From NCBI RefSeq assembly GCF_000143885.2, contig NC_018581.1:3472001-3536000 (forward strand): DNA of 64,000 bases, written 5' to 3'. The position numbers were made by a program, and so were the translations under genes. Source of the DNA: Gordonia sp. KTR9. GTDB taxonomy: Bacteria > Actinomycetota > Actinomycetes > Mycobacteriales > Mycobacteriaceae. Positions 2,859 through 15,506 of this stretch are shown one piece after another. The stretch's first letter is position 1; each line of letters begins with the position of its first letter. The notes under the pieces were generated by a model. The model saw only the letters and a list, made by a program, of their open reading frames with translations, searched no databases and had not been told where the DNA came from.

Positions 2859-4754
2859 TCACCAGCGACCCGCGCCTCGTCCGCTCGCGCCGCGGTAGTC
2901 ACTCCGCCCGCGGTACTCACTCCGCCCGCGGTACTCACTCCGCCCGCTCGCTCCGCTCCCGGCGCGGGCACTCCCCCGATACCCGACACCGTAGTCCACG
3001 CCGCCCCGCGGAGACGGCCCAGGTCGGGCACGTCCCGCGCCACCGCCGCGTCCGGCGGCCGTCGATCGGGCGCCCCCGGTGCTGCCGCCGCCAGCGCGCG
3101 GGAACGACCGGCCGTGACGGCGATCGCCGGGCGGGGACTGCGTCGTCTTCGCGGCCCGTTTCCAGGGCAGCGGGAAACGTCGTCGGCCGCGACCGGCGTC
3201 CGCCGATGGCGCCCGTCCGCTCGGTGGCCGGCGACGCGTCACCGGTCCTCGAGCACTGTGACCGGCGCCGGCGGCCGCACGCGGGCCTCCCGTGCGTCGC
3301 TGGTCCAGTCGGTCGCGCAGCGACTCCGCACGCGTCTGCCGGTAGGCAACCGGCGTCGGGAGACGCAGCCACCGTGCGACGCGGCTCGGTGATCCGCCGG
3401 TGAGGGTCGCCACCGCCTCGGGTTCGTGTCTGGCCGCGTTGGCGAGCAGCCCGAGCATCGCGAGGACCGTCAGCGTCGACGTGCCGCCCGCCGAGACCAG
3501 CGGCAGCTGGATTCCGGTCACCGGAAGCAATCCGATGACGTACCCGATGTTGATGAAGGCCTGCGCGATGATGAGCACCGTGATGGTCGCCGACATCAGG
3601 CGCAGGAACGGATCGGTCGAGCGGTGCGCGATGCGGAAGCCGATGTAGGCGAGGACGACGAAGAGGAACACCACCATGAGGCCGCCGAGCAGCCCGAGTT
3701 CCTCGCCGATGATCGCGAAGATGAAGTCGTTGTGCGCGTTCGGCAGATAATTCCACTTGGCACTCGACTGGCCGAGTCCCACACCGAAGACCCCGCCGTT
3801 CGCCAGCGCGTAGGTCGCCTGGCGCGCCTGATAACCCGCGCCCTGCGGGTCGTCGACGTTGCCGAGAAAGCTCATCACGCGCTGGGACCGATAGCCCTCG
3901 GCGAGGGCGAGGATCACGGCCAGCACGATGCCGGACACCGCGAACGACGCGAACACCTTGATCGGCAGACCCGCGAACCACAGCAGCGCGCCGACGATGA
4001 TCGCGATGGTGATCGTCGTCGAGAGGTTCGGTTCGAGGATGATGAGCAGGCACACGAGCATGGCCACCGGAACGAGCGGAACCAACAACTCACGCAGCGA
4101 GGCGTTGTCCCGCCGCCGGGAGGCCAGCAGGTGCGCACCCCAGATGCACAGCGCGACCTTGACCAGCTCGGACGGCTGCACCGACAGCCCGTAGATGACG
4201 AACCAGCGCCGCGCGCCCTGACTGAGCGTGCCGACGCCGGGGATGAGGACCAGGGCCAGCAACACCACCGCGACGAACATGGCGGGGGCGGCGAACCGCC
4301 GGAGGAGCCGCACCGGGACGCGCAGCATCAGATAGAACACCACGAGTCCCAGCAACGCGAAGATCACCTGGGTGGCGAACAGACCGTACGCCGACCCCTC
4401 TTTGGAGTAGCCCTCGACCGACGACGCCGAGAGCACCATCACCAGACCGAATGTGGTGAGCAGGAACGACATCGTGAGGATGAGCTGATACGACGCGAGC
4501 GGTCGGGCCAGCAGATTGCGGATCGCCTCTGCGACGATCGCCGGGACCGACGCGGCGGCCGCAGCACCCGCGGCACCCGCCGATCGGCTCGAGGCGTCAC
4601 CGGTCGCCGACGCGGTGCCGGCCGCGCGCTTGGTTCCCCGCCGTTCGGCCTTCGTGCCGGTGTCGGTGTCGGTGCCGGCCTCGGTGTCCTCGACGCCGGT
4701 GACGCCGTCGGCATCGTCGGGGTCGTTGTCCGCGGCCGGGGTCCGGCTGCTCAT
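2859..4754 (-). CDS. ftsW: Peptidoglycan glycosyltransferase FtsW
   Basis: SEDS-family septal peptidoglycan polymerase that works with the class B PBP encoded upstream. The middle of the protein is a multi-helix membrane domain with the family motifs QPSELVKVAL and NAHNDFIFAIIGEELG. About 85 residues of acidic then basic cytoplasmic sequence precede the first helix. A long Arg/Gly/Ser-rich tail of roughly 150 residues follows the last helix and ends in RSEYRG-type repeats. The 631-residue product is longer than most FtsW because of these tails. The ATG at 4754 lies 5 bp after the murD stop; a GTG at 4763 forms a GTGA overlap with that stop and is an equally good start. Confidence 0.93.
   Translation of the reverse strand: MSSRTPAADNDPDDADGVTGVEDTEAGTDTDTGTKAERRGTKRAAGTASATGDASSRSAGAAGAAAAASVPAIVAEAIRNLLARPLASYQLILTMSFLLTTFGLVMVLSASSVEGYSKEGSAYGLFATQVIFALLGLVVFYLMLRVPVRLLRRFAAPAMFVAVVLLALVLIPGVGTLSQGARRWFVIYGLSVQPSELVKVALCIWGAHLLASRRRDNASLRELLVPLVPVAMLVCLLIILEPNLSTTITIAIIVGALLWFAGLPIKVFASFAVSGIVLAVILALAEGYRSQRVMSFLGNVDDPQGAGYQARQATYALANGGVFGVGLGQSSAKWNYLPNAHNDFIFAIIGEELGLLGGLMVVFLFVVLAYIGFRIAHRSTDPFLRLMSATITVLIIAQAFINIGYVIGLLPVTGIQLPLVSAGGTSTLTVLAMLGLLANAARHEPEAVATLTGGSPSRVARWLRLPTPVAYRQTRAESLRDRLDQRRTGGPRAAAGAGHSARGPVTRRRPPSGRAPSADAGRGRRRFPLPWKRAAKTTQSPPGDRRHGRSFPRAGGGSTGGARSTAAGRGGGAGRARPGPSPRGGVDYGVGYRGSARAGSGASGRSEYRGRSEYRGRSDYRGASGRGAGRW
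2891..2944 (-). repeat. Three 18-bp tandem repeats in the ftsW 3' end
   Basis: Three consecutive 18-bp units (2891-2908, 2909-2926, 2927-2944) differ at a single position (G versus C). They encode RSEYRG/RSDYRG hexapeptides in the cytoplasmic tail of FtsW. Confidence 0.9.
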
Positions 4755-4759
4755 CCGAC

Positions 4760-6343
4760 TCACCGTCCGGCGGTGGAAGAGCCGGCGATCCGGCATGCGG
4801 CGGCGGCGAAGGCGTCGCCGCGCGCTCCGTAACCGGCGAACATGTCCAGCGAGGCCGCCGCGGGGGCGAGCAGCACGGCGTCGGGGGCGGGTGAGCTCGC
4901 GACGGCGAGCGCCCAGGCCTCCTCGACGGCCCGGTCCATGACCGCCACCGATGCCGAGGAGCCCGTACCCGGGAGATCAACCGCTGAGGTGTGGGGACCG
5001 GCCTGTCCCGGACGATGCACGTTCACCGTGCCATCGTCTCCTGTGAATACTGTGACTGTTGGGACTTCTGGGGCGTGTCGCGCGATCGCCTCGATCACAA
5101 GGTCGCGGTCGCGCCCGATGGCGACCACGCCGACCAGCCGAGCACCCACCGCCGAGAGCATCTCGTCCATCGACGCACCCTTCAGCAGGCCGCCTGCGAT
5201 CAGGACGACCCGGTCGAAGGCGGCCACGGCGGCTTGTGCGGCGTGCGGATTGGTGGCCTTCGAGTCGTCGACGAAGGCGACACCGTCCCGGGACGCGACG
5301 ACCTCACCGCGGTGGCCGGCCGGCCGGAAGGCCGTCAGGCCGGCCCGCACCGCGTCGGGTCCGATGCCGACCGCGAGCGCCAGCGCCGACGCGGCCAGCG
5401 CGTCGGCGACACCCGACGGGCCGGCCGGCCGCACCGCATCGGCGTCGAACAGGTGGCCGGCGTCGAAGGCGCGGTCGGTCAGCTGCCCGTCCACGACGCC
5501 GAGCTGGCCGGGCCGAGGCTCGCCGAGCGTGAAACCGATGCGTCGACCCGTGGCGGGCAGCCCGGACGCGACCGGGTCGTCGAGGCCGACGACACTCACC
5601 GCGCCGCGCAGCGCACCCGCCTTGGCGAGCGCATACGCCTCGAACGTACCGTGCCAGTCGAGGTGGTCCTCGGCGACGTTGAGCACGACCCCGGCATGCG
5701 GACGGATCGACGGCGCCCAGTGCAGCTGGAACGAGGACAACTCGGCACACAGCACGTCCACCCGCGGCTCGGCCTGCATCGCGTCGAGAACCGGGAGACC
5801 GATGTTGCCGCAGGCAGCGCCCGCACGACCGGAGGCCTCGACGATCCCGGCCAGCATCGAGGTGGTCGTCGTCTTGCCGTTGGTCCCGGTCACCACGAGC
5901 CAGGTGCGTGGTTCGCCCAGCAGACCCGCCGCGTCGACGCGCCAGGCCAGTTCGACCTCGCCCCAGACCGGGACGCCGACGTCGGCCGCCGCCCGGACCA
6001 GATGGTGGGTCGGCGCGAAGCCGGGCGACACGATGACCACCGCGGCCCCAGCGAGCCGAGCGGGATCGGCGAGCAGATCCGACACGGCGATCGCCTCGAC
6101 GCCGCGCGACACCAGTTCCGCCACCCCGGCGACCGCGGCCGTCGCCGCCTCCCGATCGGCCGGGGACGCCTCGCGGGCGGCGAAGCGGTCGTCGGCGAGC
6201 AGCACATCGGCGCCGAGCGTCACCAGGAACCGGGTGGCCGACAGGCCGGCGGTCCCGGCACCGCCGACCACGACGGTCCGGCCGGCCAGGTCGCGTGCGT
6301 CGGGTCCGAGCGGGTTCGGATCCGGCACCGGGCGATCAGGCAT
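4760..6343 (-). CDS. murD: UDP-N-acetylmuramoylalanine--D-glutamate ligase MurD
   Basis: Cytoplasmic Mur ligase that adds D-glutamate to UDP-MurNAc-L-Ala. Visible features are the N-terminal binding sequence [14 protein letters not shown], the ATP loop [14 protein letters not shown] and the C-terminal [10 protein letters not shown] signature. The product has 527 residues, somewhat longer than the usual 450-490, mainly through inserts and a hydrophilic N-terminus. The ATG at 6343 overlaps the end of mraY by 8 bp, and the stop abuts ftsW, consistent with one transcript. Confidence 0.95.
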
Positions 6344-7433
6344 TGGTGGTCAGGAACTCGCCGTAGAACAGGGACAGCCCGAGGGCACAGGCGATGGCAG
6401 TGAGCAACCAGAACCTGATGATCACCGTGGTCTCGGCCCAGCCACCGAGTTCGAAGTGGTGGTGGAAAGGCGCCATCCGGAACACGCGTCGCCCGGTGGT
6501 CCGGAAGAAGGCGATCTGGATCACCACCGACATGATCTCGGCGACGAACAGCGCGCCGATGACGACCGCGAGCAGCTCGGTGCGCGTGGTGATCGACAGG
6601 CCCGCGAGCATCCCGCCGAGGGCGAGCGAGCCGGTGTCACCCATGAAGATCTTGGCGGGTGCGGCGTTCCACCAGAGGAAGCCGAGGCACGCCCCGCCGC
6701 CGGCCACCGCGATCAGCGCGAGGTCGAGCGGGTCGCGCACCTGATAGCAGCCGGTGGTGATCTCGCTGGGCGGCTTGGCGCCACCCGCGCAGGCGTTGAC
6801 GAACTGGAAGAAGGTGACCAGGACATAGGAGCCCAGGACCATCGCCATCGACCCGGCGGCCAGGCCGTCGAGTCCGTCGGTGAAGTTCACCGCATTCGAC
6901 CACGCCGCCACCACGAGCCAGCAGAACACCACGAAGACCACCGAGCCGAGCGTGATCGCGTCGATGTCGCGAACGTAGGACAGGTTGGTGCTCGCGGGCG
7001 TGTAGCCGTAGTCGTTGCGGAACTGCAGCACCAGGATGCCGAAGAGGATGGCCGCGACGAACTGACCGATCGATTTCGCGGTCTTGTTCAGACCCAGGTT
7101 GCGGTGCTTGCGGATCTTGATGATGTCGTCGAGGAAGCCGACGACGCCCAACGCGGTCGCCAGTCCGAGGACGAGCAGGCCGGAGGCGGTCGGCCCGTTC
7201 CCGGCGTCGGTGAAGACCCCGACGAGATGGGCACCGAAGTAACCCGCCCACAGCGCGGCGAGGATCGCGACACCGCCCATCGACGGGGTTCCGCGCTTGG
7301 TCTGGTGACTCTTCGGACCCTCGACCCGGATCTCCTGCCCGAATCCCTGCCGGGAGAACACCTTGATGAGGACCGGCGTCAGCAGGATCGACACCGCGAT
7401 CGCGATCGCGCCCGCGAGGAGTATCTGTGTCAC
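6336..7433 (-). CDS. mraY: Phospho-N-acetylmuramoyl-pentapeptide-transferase MraY
   Basis: Integral membrane enzyme that transfers phospho-MurNAc-pentapeptide to undecaprenyl phosphate to form lipid I. The family signatures are intact: [39 protein letters not shown] and [11 protein letters not shown]. The GTG at 7433 ([15 protein letters not shown]) has GGAGAGG upstream and gives 365 residues, the normal length. In the operon it directly follows the shortened murF-like gene, with a 127-bp gap that holds no recognisable MurF sequence. The substrate it needs is made by MurF, so a complete murF must exist elsewhere. Confidence 0.96.
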
Positions 7434-7560
7434 CGCGTTGCCCCCGCATCCTCTCCGTACCCGACCGGAATTCTGTCCTCGACCACGATCGTCTCCCCGA
7501 ACCTGTCCTGTGCCCCGAGCCGGTGTGGTGTCGCCGACCTGCTCGTCCCCGCCCCGCGGG

Positions 7561-8046
7561 TCACGGTGCCGCCTCCTCGCCGGTCGTCGCGTCGACGACC
7601 CGCCATCCCCCGCGCTCCGACCACGCGGCGATGACCGCATCGAGGTCGGCGGTCGCCGTCGCCAGCAGGATCACGTCACCGGCGGCGGGACGCCAGTCCT
7701 GGTCGATGTCGGCGAGACCCGCGGCCTCGTCGGCGGTCGCGACGATGCGCGCCTCGTCACCCCAGGAACCCTCCATGACCGCGCCCTGATGGAGGGCGTG
7801 AACCGATCGTGAGTCACCCACGCAGAGAGTCTTGTCGACGGCCAGCCGGACCGCCAGGCGACCCAGCAGATCGTGTTCGACGACCCGCTGGTTCTCGGTG
7901 AGGCCCGCCGGTGAGGCGAGTTCGGCGATGACCGCCCAGGTACGCCCCGCGCCGGCGGACTCGGCGAGGCGCCGGAGCAGCAGGCGGGCGTCGTCGACCG
8001 AGACCGGCGGGTTGCCACGGATGACCGTGACCGATGGCGTCGTCAT
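7561..8046 (-). CDS. MurF-like protein reduced to a C-terminal Mur ligase domain
   Basis: This 161-residue frame occupies the murF position between murE and mraY. Its sequence resembles only the third (C-terminal) domain of Mur[19 protein letters not shown] aligns with the usual 'DaYNANP-S--aA' entry. RTWAVIAEL, the [14 protein letters not shown] helix and a [14 protein letters not shown] strand-helix follow. The UDP-MurNAc-tripeptide and ATP-binding domains (about 320 residues) are absent. The DAYNANP motif is reduced to IRGNPP, and the usual KASR after GDV is ATAT. The ATG at 8046 overlaps the murE stop (TGATG), so it is translationally coupled and open throughout. It could be a decayed remnant or a retained non-catalytic protein. 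Ligase activity is not expected. Confidence 0.8.
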
Positions 8047-9713
8047 CACCGCTCCTCGGCCGCCGCGTCGGGGCCGCGGGTGGTCCCCGTCGCCCGCGAT
8101 GTCGCCGCGCGGGACTCCAGCGCACGGGCGACGACCTCGCGGTCGTCGAACGGATGCTTCACGCCGTTGATCTCCTGACCTGCTTCGTGTCCCTTGCCGG
8201 CGACCAGCACGATGTCACCGGGCTGCGCCCACGCGATCGCCGCCTCGACGGCCGCGGCGCGATCGCCGATCTCCCGGACGGGTTCGGCGTCACGGGGTCG
8301 CTCGGTCACCGGCACGGCGTACGCCCCGGCGAGCACCTCGGCGCGGATCGCGCCCGGATCTTCGGTGCGGGGGTTGTCGTCGGTGACGACGACGAGTTCG
8401 GCGCCGCGCGCGGCGGCCTCCCCCATCAGCGGACGTTTCCCGGTGTCCCGGTCGCCGCCGGCACCGATGACGATGGCGACCCGTCCGGTCGACTGCCCGC
8501 GCAGCGTCGTCAGCACCGCGTCGACCGCTCCCGGTTTGTGCGCGTAGTCGACCAGGGCCAGGAAGGGCTGCCCGCGGTCGATGCGCTGCAACCGTCCCGG
8601 CACGCTCACCGACGCCACCGCCTCGAGCGCCGTCGGCACCGACACCCCCGCGGCGTGCGCGACGGCGACGGCGAGCAGACCGTTGGCCACGTTGTACCGG
8701 CCGGGCAGCGGGATGCGGAGCTCGTGGGTTCCGTCCGGCTCGGAGAACGGTGTGCGTGACGAACCGTCGGGATCGAGCGACGACTCACCGGCGTGCCAGT
8801 GGGCCGGCGTCGGCCCGGTGGACACCGTGACCGGCTGCAGATGGGCGGACTCTCCCGGCCGCCGGGCGAGCTCGGCCATCCGTCGACCCCACTCGTCGTC
8901 GACGCAGACGACCGCCCGGACGGCATGGGTGGGGGCGGACGGGACGAACAGCTGCGCCTTGGCGTCGAAGTAGGCGCGCATCGTCTGGTGGAAGTCGAGA
9001 TGGTCCTGCGAGAGGTTGGTGAACGCGCCGATCGCGAAATGCGCACCGTCGACTCGGCCGAGCGCCAGCGCGTGACTCGACACCTCCATGACCACGATGT
9101 CGACGCCGTCCTCGAGCATCGCCGCGAGCAGGGCCTGCAGGGTCGGCGCCTCCGGGGTGGTCAGCGAACTCGGCTGGGCGACGCCGTTCACGCGCGTCTC
9201 GACGGTGCCGATCAGTCCGACGGAGTGGCCGGCGGCCAGCAGGGCGGCCTCGACGAGGTAGGACGTGGTGGTCTTACCCGACGTGCCGGTGACACCGATC
9301 AGCTTGAGCCGCTGCGACGGGTTGCCGTAGACGCGCGCACTGACGTTGCCGAGGACCGTGCGCGGCGCGGGATGGATGAGGACCGCGACGGCGGTCTCCG
9401 GCGGCAGCACGCGGGCGAGCTCGGCCCGGCCGGCGGGATCGGTGAGGATGGCCGACGCACCGGCCGCCACGGCCTGGTCGGCGAATCGCGCGCCATGCGT
9501 GCTCGACCCGGGCAGCGCGGCGAACAGATCACCGGGCCGGACCTCCTGGGCACGCAGCGTCACCCCGGTCACGGTCGACTCGGCGTCGGCGCCGCCGACG
9601 AGGTCGAGCCTGGCCCCGGTGGCGGTGGACAGCACGGACACAAGTGTCGGCGTGACCTCGCTGGGACGGATGGGTCCACCACGCGGGTCTTGTGATCGTC
9701 GACGAGACGCCAT
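8046..9713 (-). CDS. murE: UDP-N-acetylmuramoyl-tripeptide synthetase MurE
   Basis: Mur ligase that adds the third stem residue. The DNPRTED motif in the C-terminal domain is the signature for meso-diaminopimelate as substrate, as expected in mycolata. The ATP loop is GVTGTSGKTTTSYLVEAALL. The ATG at 9713 (MASRRRSQ) has GAGGAG upstream and gives 555 residues. The frame stays open for another 110 residues upstream, but that stretch is low-complexity arginine-rich noise. The 3' end overlaps the murF-like start by one base. Confidence 0.95.
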   Translation of the reverse strand: MASRRRSQDPRGGPIRPSEVTPTLVSVLSTATGARLDLVGGADAESTVTGVTLRAQEVRPGDLFAALPGSSTHGARFADQAVAAGASAILTDPAGRAELARVLPPETAVAVLIHPAPRTVLGNVSARVYGNPSQRLKLIGVTGTSGKTTTSYLVEAALLAAGHSVGLIGTVETRVNGVAQPSSLTTPEAPTLQALLAAMLEDGVDIVVMEVSSHALALGRVDGAHFAIGAFTNLSQDHLDFHQTMRAYFDAKAQLFVPSAPTHAVRAVVCVDDEWGRRMAELARRPGESAHLQPVTVSTGPTPAHWHAGESSLDPDGSSRTPFSEPDGTHELRIPLPGRYNVANGLLAVAVAHAAGVSVPTALEAVASVSVPGRLQRIDRGQPFLALVDYAHKPGAVDAVLTTLRGQSTGRVAIVIGAGGDRDTGKRPLMGEAAARGAELVVVTDDNPRTEDPGAIRAEVLAGAYAVPVTERPRDAEPVREIGDRAAAVEAAIAWAQPGDIVLVAGKGHEAGQEINGVKHPFDDREVVARALESRAATSRATGTTRGPDAAAEER

Positions 9714-12014: not shown

Positions 12015-12863
12015 TCACGGGGCGGGCACCACATTCGGCGCGGGAGTCGGCGTCGACGACGCGGCCGGCGGAACCACGCTCGTTCCCTCCGGCACCGAAT
12101 CGGTCCCGGACGGCAGCGGATTCGCGCCGGGCGGGGCGGTTTGCGACGGTGCGGGTTGCGACGGCGCCGGTTGTCCGCCGGTCGGTTGCGATGGTGTGGG
12201 CTGCGGGGTGGTCGTCGGACCCGCGTCTGGCCCGTCCGAACCCGACCGTCCACCCAGACCGATCGAGTCATCGACCCGGCTCGGGTCGACCTGGTCCGCG
12301 GGATCCGGTGCGGTGTCGGGGTTCAGACTCCCCATCGGCCGGCCGGAGGCCGGTACCGGCTTGCCCACCACTCGCGGCCGCCGAGGGTCGTCGACGATCA
12401 TGCGGGCGGGGTTGTCGGCCGGGATCATGCCGAGACGCGCTGCCTTGTCGGACAATTCGGGCGCCGAATTGCCGGATTCATAGGTGCGCTTGAGGGCGTC
12501 GCGTTGATCGATGAGGGACTGATTCTGTGTGCGCTCGATTCCCAGCTTGTAGGAGTCCTGCGCCGCCTTGGTCGACAGCCACAGGCTGAGGCCGAGGCCG
12601 AGCACCAGCAGAGCGATGACCGGTACGACGAAGGGGGTGTGCTGCAATCGCTCTCGCAGGGACACCCCGGTCATCGACAGTCCACCGCCGGTACGACGCG
12701 ACGGTGCGGCACGACCTGCCGCGGTGCGGCGGTGGCGCCGGTCGAGTGCGCGTTGGGCGGCGCGCGACCGGGTCGCCCGCTCGGACTCGATGCGGGTCCG
12801 GCGTGACCGTCGGGAGTCGCGGTCGTCGTCGGCACGCGACGGGGCCTCGTGCAGGATGGTCAT
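12015..12863 (-). CDS. ftsL: FtsL-like cell division membrane protein
   Basis: Small bitopic division protein in the canonical ftsL slot between rsmH and pbpB. A very basic cytoplasmic segment of about 80 residues is followed by one transmembrane helix (VVPVIALLVLGLGLSLWLS) and a short coiled-coil-like stretch with KAAQ and LIDQRDAL. The LGMIPADNPA element typical of actinobacterial FtsL proteins comes next. A Pro/Thr/Gln-rich extracytoplasmic tail of about 110 residues ends the protein and has no recognisable domain. The ATG at 12863 starts two bases after the rsmH stop. The assignment rests on position and topology, since FtsL is poorly conserved. Confidence 0.85.
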   Translation of the reverse strand: MTILHEAPSRADDDRDSRRSRRTRIESERATRSRAAQRALDRRHRRTAAGRAAPSRRTGGGLSMTGVSLRERLQHTPFVVPVIALLVLGLGLSLWLSTKAAQDSYKLGIERTQNQSLIDQRDALKRTYESGNSAPELSDKAARLGMIPADNPARMIVDDPRRPRVVGKPVPASGRPMGSLNPDTAPDPADQVDPSRVDDSIGLGGRSGSDGPDAGPTTTPQPTPSQPTGGQPAPSQPAPSQTAPPGANPLPSGTDSVPEGTSVVPPAASSTPTPAPNVVPAP

Positions 12864-12865
12864 GC

Positions 12866-13852
12866 TCAGCCCTTCTTCTCGACTCGTTCGATCGCGCGGA
12901 CACGAACCGGCGCCGAGCGCGGGTTGGTGGCCAGTTCGTTCTCGTCCGGCCGTTCGGCGCCGCGGGTGACGAGACGGAATTCTGGTGCGGTACCGGGCAA
13001 TTCGACCGGCAGCCCGGGAGGCGACGTCGATGACGTGCGCGTGGCGAACTCGCGCTTGACGATCCGGTCCTCCAGCGACTGATAACTCATCACGGTGACC
13101 CGACCGCCGACCACGAGCGAGTCCAGCGCCGCGGGCAATGCCTCACGCAGGACGTCCAATTCGTGGTTGACCTCGATGCGCAACGCCTGGAAGGTCCGCT
13201 TCGCCGGATGTCCGCCGGTCCGCCTGGTGGCGGCGGGGATCGCGTCGTAGAGCAATTCGACGAGACGCGCACTGGTCGTGAACGGCTCCTTGTCACGCTC
13301 CCGCAGCACCGCCGATGCGATCCGCCCGGCGAAGCGCTCCTCCCCGTAATCGGAGAGGACACGGGCCAATTCGCCGTGCGAGTACGTGTTGAGCACGTCG
13401 GCGGCGGTGAGCGGATCGTCGGCGTTCATCCGCATGTCCAGCGGCGCGTCCACCGCATAGGCGAATCCGCGTCCGGCCTGGTCCAGCTGCATCGAGGACA
13501 CGCCGAGATCGAACAGCGCGGCGTCGAGAGCCGATTCTCCCGCCGCGTCCATCACTTCGCGGATCTCGTGAAACGTCGCCTGGTGCAGCGAGATCCGGTC
13601 GGCGTAGGGGCTCAGTCGCTCACGAGCGATCTCGAGCGCCGAGGCGTCCCGGTCGATGCCGACCACCCGGACGTTCGGAAACGACTCGAGAACGAGCTGA
13701 CTGTGTCCGCCGGCGCCGAGGGTGGCGTCGAGGAAGATCCGCGGATCGTCGGAATCCAGGGCCGGGGAAAGCAGTTCGACGATGCGAGCGCCCATCACCG
13801 GTACGTGCCCGAACTCGCCGGACCGGCGCGGTTCGTCACCTGCATCGACCAT
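12866..13852 (-). CDS. rsmH: 16S rRNA (cytosine(1402)-N(4))-methyltransferase RsmH
   Basis: SAM-dependent methyltransferase acting on C1402 of 16S rRNA, encoded in the dcw cluster of most bacteria. Diagnostic stretches are [27 protein letters not shown] (SAM-binding), [17 protein letters not shown] and [14 protein letters not shown]. The 328-residue length is normal. The ATG at 13852 is the only start that keeps the N-terminal HVPV block. It is followed after two bases by the ftsL-like gene. Confidence 0.96.
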
Positions 13853-14110
13853 GATGAAGACCCCCCATCGGCATGTGTGCGGTATCGGCGGTGGGCGGTT
13901 GCTTCGGGTCGGCGAGAGCAGGCGGTCGGATGGAGCGGGGTCCCGACCCGATCACGCACCTGGCGTTGGGGAAGTACGCCAGGGTCGCCACCGGGCCGGG
14001 GCCTCGTGCCACCCGAAGCCTCTGGGCACCGAACTCGCCCATCGGTTGCTGTCTCTTCGGTCTGTGTCTCTTCGGTCTGTCTCTTGTCGGCAACCGGCGC
14101 AGGTGTCCGG
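13853..14110. other. Intergenic stretch between mraZ and rsmH with a 15-bp tandem duplication
   Basis: These 258 bp have no convincing gene. A perfect 15-bp duplication (GTCTCTTCGGTCTGT) sits at 14051-14065 and 14066-14080, followed by a partial third copy. No clear terminator was seen, so mraZ and rsmH are probably cotranscribed. Confidence 0.7.
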
Positions 14111-14551
14111 CTACAGGACCGCGTTCAGTGCCGCGGAGTTTGCGGCCGAGAAGTTCTCCTCGTGCCGGGTCTGGTATTCGTTCCACGCGGCCGAATCCCA
14201 GATCTCGAGGTGATCGAAGCTGCCGAACACCACGCACTCCTTCGACAGTCCCGCGTATACGCGATGGTCGGCGGACAGGCTGATCCTGCCCTGACCGTCC
14301 GGTCGCTGCTCTTCCGAACCGGCGAAGAACGTTCGCTGAAACGCACGCAGATCGGGGTCGTTTCGGGACGCCTCGACGATCCGTGCCGCTATCGCATCGA
14401 ACTCCTCGGTCCGGTACACCGACAAGCTGTGATCTTGGCCTTTGGTGACCACTACCCCTCCTGCCAGTGCATCGCGGAACTTGGCGGGCAACGTGAGCCG
14501 CCCTTTGTCATCCAATTTGGGCGTGTAGGTACCGACGAATCGCACGGACAC
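14111..14551 (-). CDS. mraZ: Transcriptional regulator MraZ
   Basis: AbrB/SpoVT-like DNA-binding protein and first gene of the dcw cluster. In other bacteria it binds short repeats in its own promoter and controls the cluster. The N-terminal half shows [20 protein letters not shown] and the second half [11 protein letters not shown], the two swapped-hairpin units. The GTG at 14551 has AGGAGG seven bases upstream and gives the usual length of 146 residues. MraZ-box-like repeats and a -10 element lie 70-100 bp upstream, consistent with autoregulation. Confidence 0.95.
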
Positions 14552-14620
14552 GTCGACACCTCCTGCCCACCGGGATCTGCGCTTCCTGCGCTGTGGTGGA
14601 CCGCTTCACCCAGTGATGCC

Positions 14621-14653
14621 ACAGTACCCCACTTTCCACCACTTTCCACCCCC
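14621..14653 (-). promoter_or_regulatory. mraZ promoter -10 with adjacent MraZ-box-like repeats
   Basis: On the minus strand, 10-bp-spaced repeats TGGAAAGTGG, TGGAAAGTGG lead into GGGTACTGT. TACTGT (14626-14621) fits the actinobacterial -10 pattern TANNNT. MraZ proteins elsewhere recognise TGGGN or AAAGTG-type direct repeats with a 10-bp period, and these repeats have that geometry. Binding is inferred. Confidence 0.65.
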
Positions 14654-14823
14654 AGCACCCCCCGATTCCCCCACGCTCAACAAATTCGCAGTTCAGAGCA
14701 GTGAAACGCGGCAAGTGAAGCACGTGTCGCGGCGCGTCGCCGGCGGAATTCTGCGCTCGTACCCGTGACAAGGGGCGTCTGGCGTTACCAGAGGGGCTGG
14801 AATGACCGGGACAAATGCGAAGG

Positions 14824-14892
14824 TGGGGCATAGTGGGGCGCGCGTGTGGGGAGAAGTGGGGAACGCCGGTGGGGCGTCGTGGGGACCGTCGA
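14824..14892 (+). repeat. Three-unit 23-bp array of paired TGGGG motifs
   Basis: TGGGG begins at 14824, 14834, 14847, 14857, 14870 and 14880, so spacing alternates 10, 13, 10, 13, 10 bp. The array can be read as three 23-bp units, each holding two TGGGG motifs 10 bp apart. The sequence between the motifs is not conserved, which suggests that the motif spacing is what is maintained. Confidence 0.8.
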
Positions 14893-14951
14893 CCGTGCGC
14901 CCGAATCCGTCGACTGGGCGTCCGGATCCGTCGACTGTGCGCCGCGTGATC
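14887..14951 (+). repeat. Three degenerate 21-23-bp tandem repeats
   Basis: Units begin at 14887, 14908 and 14929 and share CGTCGACYG-GCG and a closing ATC. The first two are 21 bp and the third is 23 bp. Function unknown. Confidence 0.7.
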
Positions 14952-14989
14952 CGTCCGGTGCCCAGGCGGTGAACGGAAGCATGAAAGAG

Positions 14990-15012
14990 CCGCGTACCCG
15001 TGGGGTACGCGG
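14990..15012 (-). terminator. Intrinsic terminator hairpin downstream of the DUF3040 gene
   Basis: A perfect 10-bp stem, CCGCGTACCC / GGGTACGCGG, has a 3-base loop. Read on the minus strand it is followed by CTCTTTC. It separates the DUF3040 gene from the dcw transcript. Confidence 0.75.
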
Positions 15013-15101
15013 CCCTTGTCGTATGCGGTTGGCGCGGTGGCGACGCGGTTGTAACCGGGGTCGGTCAGCCGATCGACGAACGCGGAGTCGAGATCAGCGG
15101 A

Positions 15102-15506
15102 TCACTCCTGCTCGAACCTGCGATTGAATCGCTCTTCCATGCGTTCCGACAGCTTCCGCTTGCCGCCGCCCGACGGCCCGGATTGCTTCTTCCCGGCCCT
15201 GGGCGCCGACGAACCGGAGTCTGCGGTGCCGCTGTCCCCCCAGAGAGCGAAGAGGCCGGCCCCGAACATCACCAGGAAGCCCAGCAGGCTCACTATCGGA
15301 AACCCGCCGATGGTGATGTCGACGATGAGTCCGCCGACCAGCATCACCAGGCCGACGACGAAGACCGCTGCCGCCTGCAGGCGACGACGACCGCTCGACC
15401 TCCCAAGACGTCGACGCTTGACACTGGACGCAAACTTGGGGTCTTCCGCGTACAGCGCGCTCTCGATTTGTTCGAGCATGCGTTGCTCGTGCTCCGAAAG
15501 TGGCAC
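15102..15506 (-). CDS. DUF3040 domain membrane protein
   Basis: Small conserved actinobacterial membrane protein, equivalent by position and pattern to Rv2169c. It begins VPLSEHEQRMLEQIESAL, the DUF3040 signature, then has a basic stretch, two transmembrane helices (about residues 48-65 and 70-88) and a hydrophilic basic tail. The GTG at 15506 is supported by AGAAGGAGG just upstream; the longer open frame to 15659 has no such support. Function is unknown. A hairpin terminator follows the gene. Confidence 0.88.
   Translation of the reverse strand: MPLSEHEQRMLEQIESALYAEDPKFASSVKRRRLGRSSGRRRLQAAAVFVVGLVMLVGGLIVDITIGGFPIVSLLGFLVMFGAGLFALWGDSGTADSGSSAPRAGKKQSGPSGGGKRKLSERMEERFNRRFEQE

Follow-up and report, generated by a model that had tools for sequence, protein, structure and literature searches.

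A lone MurF C-terminal domain retained beside murE in Gordonia and its relatives after replacement of MurF catalysis by a foreign enzyme

The window, a 64,000-nucleotide stretch of contig NC_018581.1 of Gordonia sp. KTR9, holds a dcw operon that looks complete except between murE and mraY, where there is a single murF-like frame. This frame starts at the boundary of MurF domains 2 and 3, and the N-terminal UDP-MurNAc-peptide and central ATP domains are missing. Which protein performs the MurF reaction in this organism, and why has one third of murF stayed in the operon? A first-pass annotation of the sequence had described a murF cut down to its third domain with a start overlapping the murE stop, and both descriptions held: the frame encodes a lone C-terminal domain of 161 aa, and its ATG shares one base with the stop of murE. 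The features are as follows.

6336..7433, minus strand: mraY
7434..7560, unstranded: gap of 127 bp between the remnant and mraY, without an Rfam match in a search of 7300-8200 at E up to 1
7561..8046, minus strand: MurF C-terminal domain standing alone, 161 aa followed by a stop
7654..7662, minus strand: residues 129-131 of the remnant, the K-A/G-S site of full MurFs; motif lost
7753..7875, minus strand: retained patch, residues 58-98, with 17 of the 18 columns invariant in 41/41 remnants
7753-7773, minus strand: EGSWGDE, residues 92-98, the end of the patch
7996..8019, minus strand: residues 10-17 of the remnant, the NDxYNANP site of full MurFs; motif lost
8046..9713, minus strand: murE, stop sharing one base with the remnant ATG; upstream start assumed

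The remnant corresponds to the third, C-terminal domain of the MurF that was resident in the dcw operon. It scored 13.6 bits against TIGR01143 (E 0.025), below the curated cut-off of 288.6 bits, and its profile matched the resident MurF C-terminal domain at 99.9%, versus 78.9% for MurE and 21.3% for the foreign MurF described below, a far better fit to resident MurFs than to the foreign enzyme. Structure prediction returned the MurF C-domain fold as a well-predicted Rossmann-like domain, and the proposed correspondence to MurF domain 3 was thus borne out by both profile and predicted structure. A profile search of solved structures gave one chance-like match only (E 0.067). The catalytic motifs, previously noted as altered, are both gone: the NDxYNANP and KxS columns were fully conserved in 24/24 resident full MurFs and not in the 49 distinct remnants compared, a count from which two identical remnants had been left out. 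Without domains 1 and 2, and with both catalytic motifs of the C-domain gone, the remnant cannot be a MurF enzyme alone, and the loss of the motifs ruled it out as an active MurF. Automatic naming of such frames could mislead, since NF008896, the model for bifunctional MurE/MurF, matched 5 of 41 remnants at E <= 0.01.

The first-pass annotation had suggested that a full murF might lie elsewhere, and a genome-wide search found one. The sole MurF above the family cut-off in the window genome (G000:C2:396071-397294, 374.7 bits) lies on the same contig about 3.1 Mb from the dcw operon, with DAYNANP and KGSR intact. A MurF above the cut-off was likewise present in 59/59 genus genomes searched and in 7/7 genomes tested from related genera. 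In a tree built from 77 MurFs (of the 'quick' type, as were all trees here, with SH-aLRT support only), the full MurFs of the Gordonia clade and of family f3 grouped with those of families f58 and f43, which belong to another class within the phylum (support 98), and the resident MurFs of the order formed a separate group (support 99). This placement outside the resident clade ruled out a relocated resident murF and indicated that the full MurF is a foreign replacement. The foreign MurF was 49-58% identical to f58/f43 sequences and 43-53% identical to resident MurFs of the family, although such percentages say less than the tree about its origin. The f3 rows were nested inside the Gordonia-clade rows with supports of only 86-88, so any order of transfers read from the tree is tentative.

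The foreign murF travels with a divergent ddl, which adjoined it in 19/19 foreign-MurF regions read and in 30/30 same-genus loci (the ddl match being cut by the locus end in 3 of the 30); ddl also adjoined murF in 10/10 f58/f43 loci. The Ddl of the window genome, the only one there above cut-off, was 47-60% identical to the 10 f58/f43 Ddls and 41-43% identical to the two from family members that keep a resident murF. In two f58/f43 genomes tested, the ddl-linked MurF alone exceeded the cut-off, and the pair therefore looks native in that class. The simplest reading of these comparisons is that the ddl-murF pair was probably transferred and displaced both resident genes, with its direction inferred. 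One relative (G091, contig C26) carried two Ddls above cut-off, of which the first adjoins the foreign murF and the second lies at a separate site. In the window genome, the flank of the foreign murF opposite ddl holds a putative glutamate decarboxylase frame (L001:2762-4195, minus strand), which was unmatched in the other 19 regions compared.

The remnant is shared across the Gordonia/Williamsia/Jongsikchunia clade as a whole. Related loci were recovered for 80 of 111 relatives, among which Gordonia lacunae was the nearest named relative of the remnant frame (91% identical); one of the six peptide search patterns holds MEGSWGDE, so motif counts from these loci are biased. As in the window, the remnant lay between murE and mraY, without room for more of murF, in 40/40 named loci (Gordonia 33, Williamsia 6, Jongsikchunia 1). 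The other 40 loci returned comprised 39 with a murF frame of at least 496 aa between murE and mraY and one contig end (L118). By profile search, the remnant was found in 59/59 genus genomes, with no stop inside any match, and in 20/20 sampled same-family genomes of other genera with the foreign MurF; these 20, with 10 genus genomes, were all the strong foreign-MurF genomes among 151 drawn. One genome, G095 (66% complete), was set aside. That the domain stands alone was seen directly in the loci and, elsewhere among the 59 genomes, is taken from the single MurF above cut-off. In a tree of MurE and MraY, from which L210 was left out, a branch with support 100 parted the 52 remnant rows from the five with a full murF. 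Family f3 showed a different arrangement: the foreign MurF was present in 4 of 5 genomes examined and the remnant was absent in 5/5; in all five loci read (L205-L209) mraY comes immediately after murE, and nothing of murF is left in between. As f3 has the foreign MurF and lacks the remnant, the function of the remnant is dispensable, replaced or absent there. In one f3 genome (G237, contig C5, ~12079-15466), the top-scoring MurF and Ddl matches (158 and 167.7 bits) adjoined one another and both fell below their cut-offs.

The remnant is under purifying selection. Its dN/dS across relatives was 0.082-0.353 (Nei-Gojobori, 40 pairs chosen for closeness, not independent, and some with dS near saturation) and not near 1. 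Eighteen columns were invariant in 41/41 remnants: D59, G62, R63, V66, R67, G77, R80, Q87, G88, M91, E92, G93, S94, W95, G96, D97, E98 and D124, the last being the one outside residues 58-98. In the wider set of 49, M91 was conserved at 98% and D97 at 94%, and QG[AT][VI]MEGSWG[DE]E was present in 44/44 genus genomes found by profile or protein search, these being the best-scoring ones. Mean column identity outside the patch was 36%, and the rest of the domain evolves fast. The patch was conserved alike in remnants and in the 24 resident full MurFs, whereas the catalytic columns were conserved only in the latter. Under the strict pattern, the motif occurred in 19/24 resident MurFs of the family and 5/16 of the order, 40 sequences picked by hand by family or order and not by motif; it is thus not universal. 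It occurred in 0/34 foreign MurFs and 0/10 ddl-linked f58/f43 MurFs, and remnant residues 76-88 had no counterpart in 16/16 foreign MurF rows. By the order of strands and helices in the predicted model, the EGSWGDE loop comes before a strand, and it would therefore be expected at the sheet edge farther from the one where such folds usually have their active site.

Across the clade the remnant is tied to MurE. Of the 49 distinct remnants, 37 were separate frames and 12 were in one frame with MurE. In 32 of the separate loci the start overlapped the murE stop by 4 bases and in 4 by 1 base, and in the remaining one it lay 6 bases past the stop; the start nearest the murE stop had been taken by script, a choice that favours overlap. 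All 12 fused rows fell within one 16-row group (support 94) of the MurE and MraY tree, which needs at least three changes between the fused and separate states; the fused and overlapping forms have therefore interchanged. The distance from remnant to mraY ranged from overlap to ~160 bp. In a model of a fused MurE-remnant chain (pLDDT 79.4, pTM 0.59, 8 natural sequences), the domains were visible and their arrangement was unsettled.

The MurE fusion, the conservation and the displaced catalysis suggest that the remnant does a second, non-enzymatic job. We lean towards the reading that it is a non-catalytic docking (adaptor) subunit of MurE, kept after the foreign MurF took over catalysis. By this account, the foreign ddl-murF pair elsewhere in the genome would have assumed the MurF reaction; the C-terminal domain of the resident MurF would have stayed in the dcw operon and lost its catalytic residues; and the remnant would be translated, in its separate form too, coupled to or fused with MurE. 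The invariant patch may then keep a contact once made by the resident MurF and impossible for the foreign one. PMC3605390 scored DdlA, the NamH homologue, PknA/B, FtsW, FtsQ, FtsZ, SepF and Wag31 as partners bound by the MurF of M. tuberculosis, which indicates that resident MurFs do make protein contacts and supplies candidate partners. The same paper records no contacts among Mur ligases, and an ancestral MurE-MurF contact is therefore not favoured. The partner of the patch would probably be a protein of division or growth, a kinase, or a further member of the Mur pathway. Several observations weigh against docking: f3 lives without the domain, some resident MurFs lack the motif, evolution outside the patch is fast, and the model of the fusion gives no fixed domain orientation to rely on. 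The earlier suggestion of a regulatory or scaffolding partner of MurE or MraY stands in part, since the fusion, seen in one clade, favours MurE and nothing points to MraY; the role itself is one the remnant may have.

Coupling and fusion to MurE, together with the well-predicted Rossmann-like domain, would also suit an allosteric or ligand-sensing regulator of MurE, but the substrate-handling residues of MurF (DxYNANP, KxS) are lost and the conserved patch lies elsewhere than those, and we regard such a regulator as unlikely. Somewhat more doubtful is an action in trans with the foreign MurF, either supplying its missing segment or recruiting it to the dcw complex. The gap at residues 76-88 in every foreign MurF row and the joint presence of remnant and foreign MurF in 20/20 same-family non-genus genomes tested would fit this reading, but the C-domain of the foreign enzyme is complete, catalytic motifs included, and that enzyme serves f3 without a remnant; in the loci read, the remnant was seen fused to MurE and never to the foreign MurF. 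It is very improbable that translational coupling or murE-mraY spacing, and not the protein, is what preserves the frame: the start overlaps the murE stop in 36/37 distinct separate loci, but the strong amino-acid constraint, the in-frame MurE fusions and the variable distance to mraY argue otherwise, and the lack of an Rfam match in 7300-8200 ruled out an RNA element. That the remnant is a decaying pseudogene or an assembly error is scarcely credible. The lost catalytic motifs and two missing domains would suit it, but the frame recurs in every one of the 59 genus genomes without internal stops, with dN/dS well below 1 and with a near-invariant patch; presence and dN/dS together ruled out both decay and the assembly deletion envisaged in the first-pass annotation.

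The docking reading can be extended, and here we are more tentative: the actinobacterial MurF C-domain might carry a second function separable from catalysis, selection having discarded the rest of the resident enzyme once the foreign ddl-murF pair took over, kept that module and attached it to MurE. If this is true, the invariant patch would mark the docking surface for a hitherto undescribed contact in the wall synthesis of actinobacteria. PMC3605390 and PMC6420597 discuss the open question of whether, and by which surfaces, Mur ligases assemble into a working complex. A whole clade in which MurF catalysis is split from the retained part narrows that question to a specific patch and makes it testable in laboratory Gordonia.

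Enzymes turned non-catalytic subunits are a known kind of protein. A MurE-like subunit of the plant plastid RNA polymerase (8qma_O, 9epc_Q and 8ras_Q, which we take to be PAP11/MurE-like) resembles the remnant as a Mur-ligase protein serving as a structural subunit; it differs in Mur family, organism and complex, and is a precedent only. The remnant shares third-domain profile, fold and operon position with the MurF C-terminal domain (TIGR01143; PF02875), and unlike MurF itself, the UDP-MurNAc-tripeptide--D-Ala-D-Ala ligase, it lacks domains 1 and 2 and the C-domain catalytic motifs. The Bordetella MurE-MurF fusion likewise joins MurE and then MurF sequence in one chain, but according to PMC6420597 both of its enzymes are complete, active and bifunctional, whereas here only a non-catalytic C-domain is attached. 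The open-licence PMC literature, as far as its accessible text goes, yielded no description of a MurF C-domain remnant, and within that literature a solitary Mur-ligase C-domain that stays conserved after foreign replacement of its enzyme and becomes fused to the adjacent ligase appears to be new.

Elsewhere in the window, the ftsW frame (2859-4796, minus strand, 645 aa) has a long repetitive R/G/S-rich C-terminal tail (RSEYRGRSEYRGRSDYRG).
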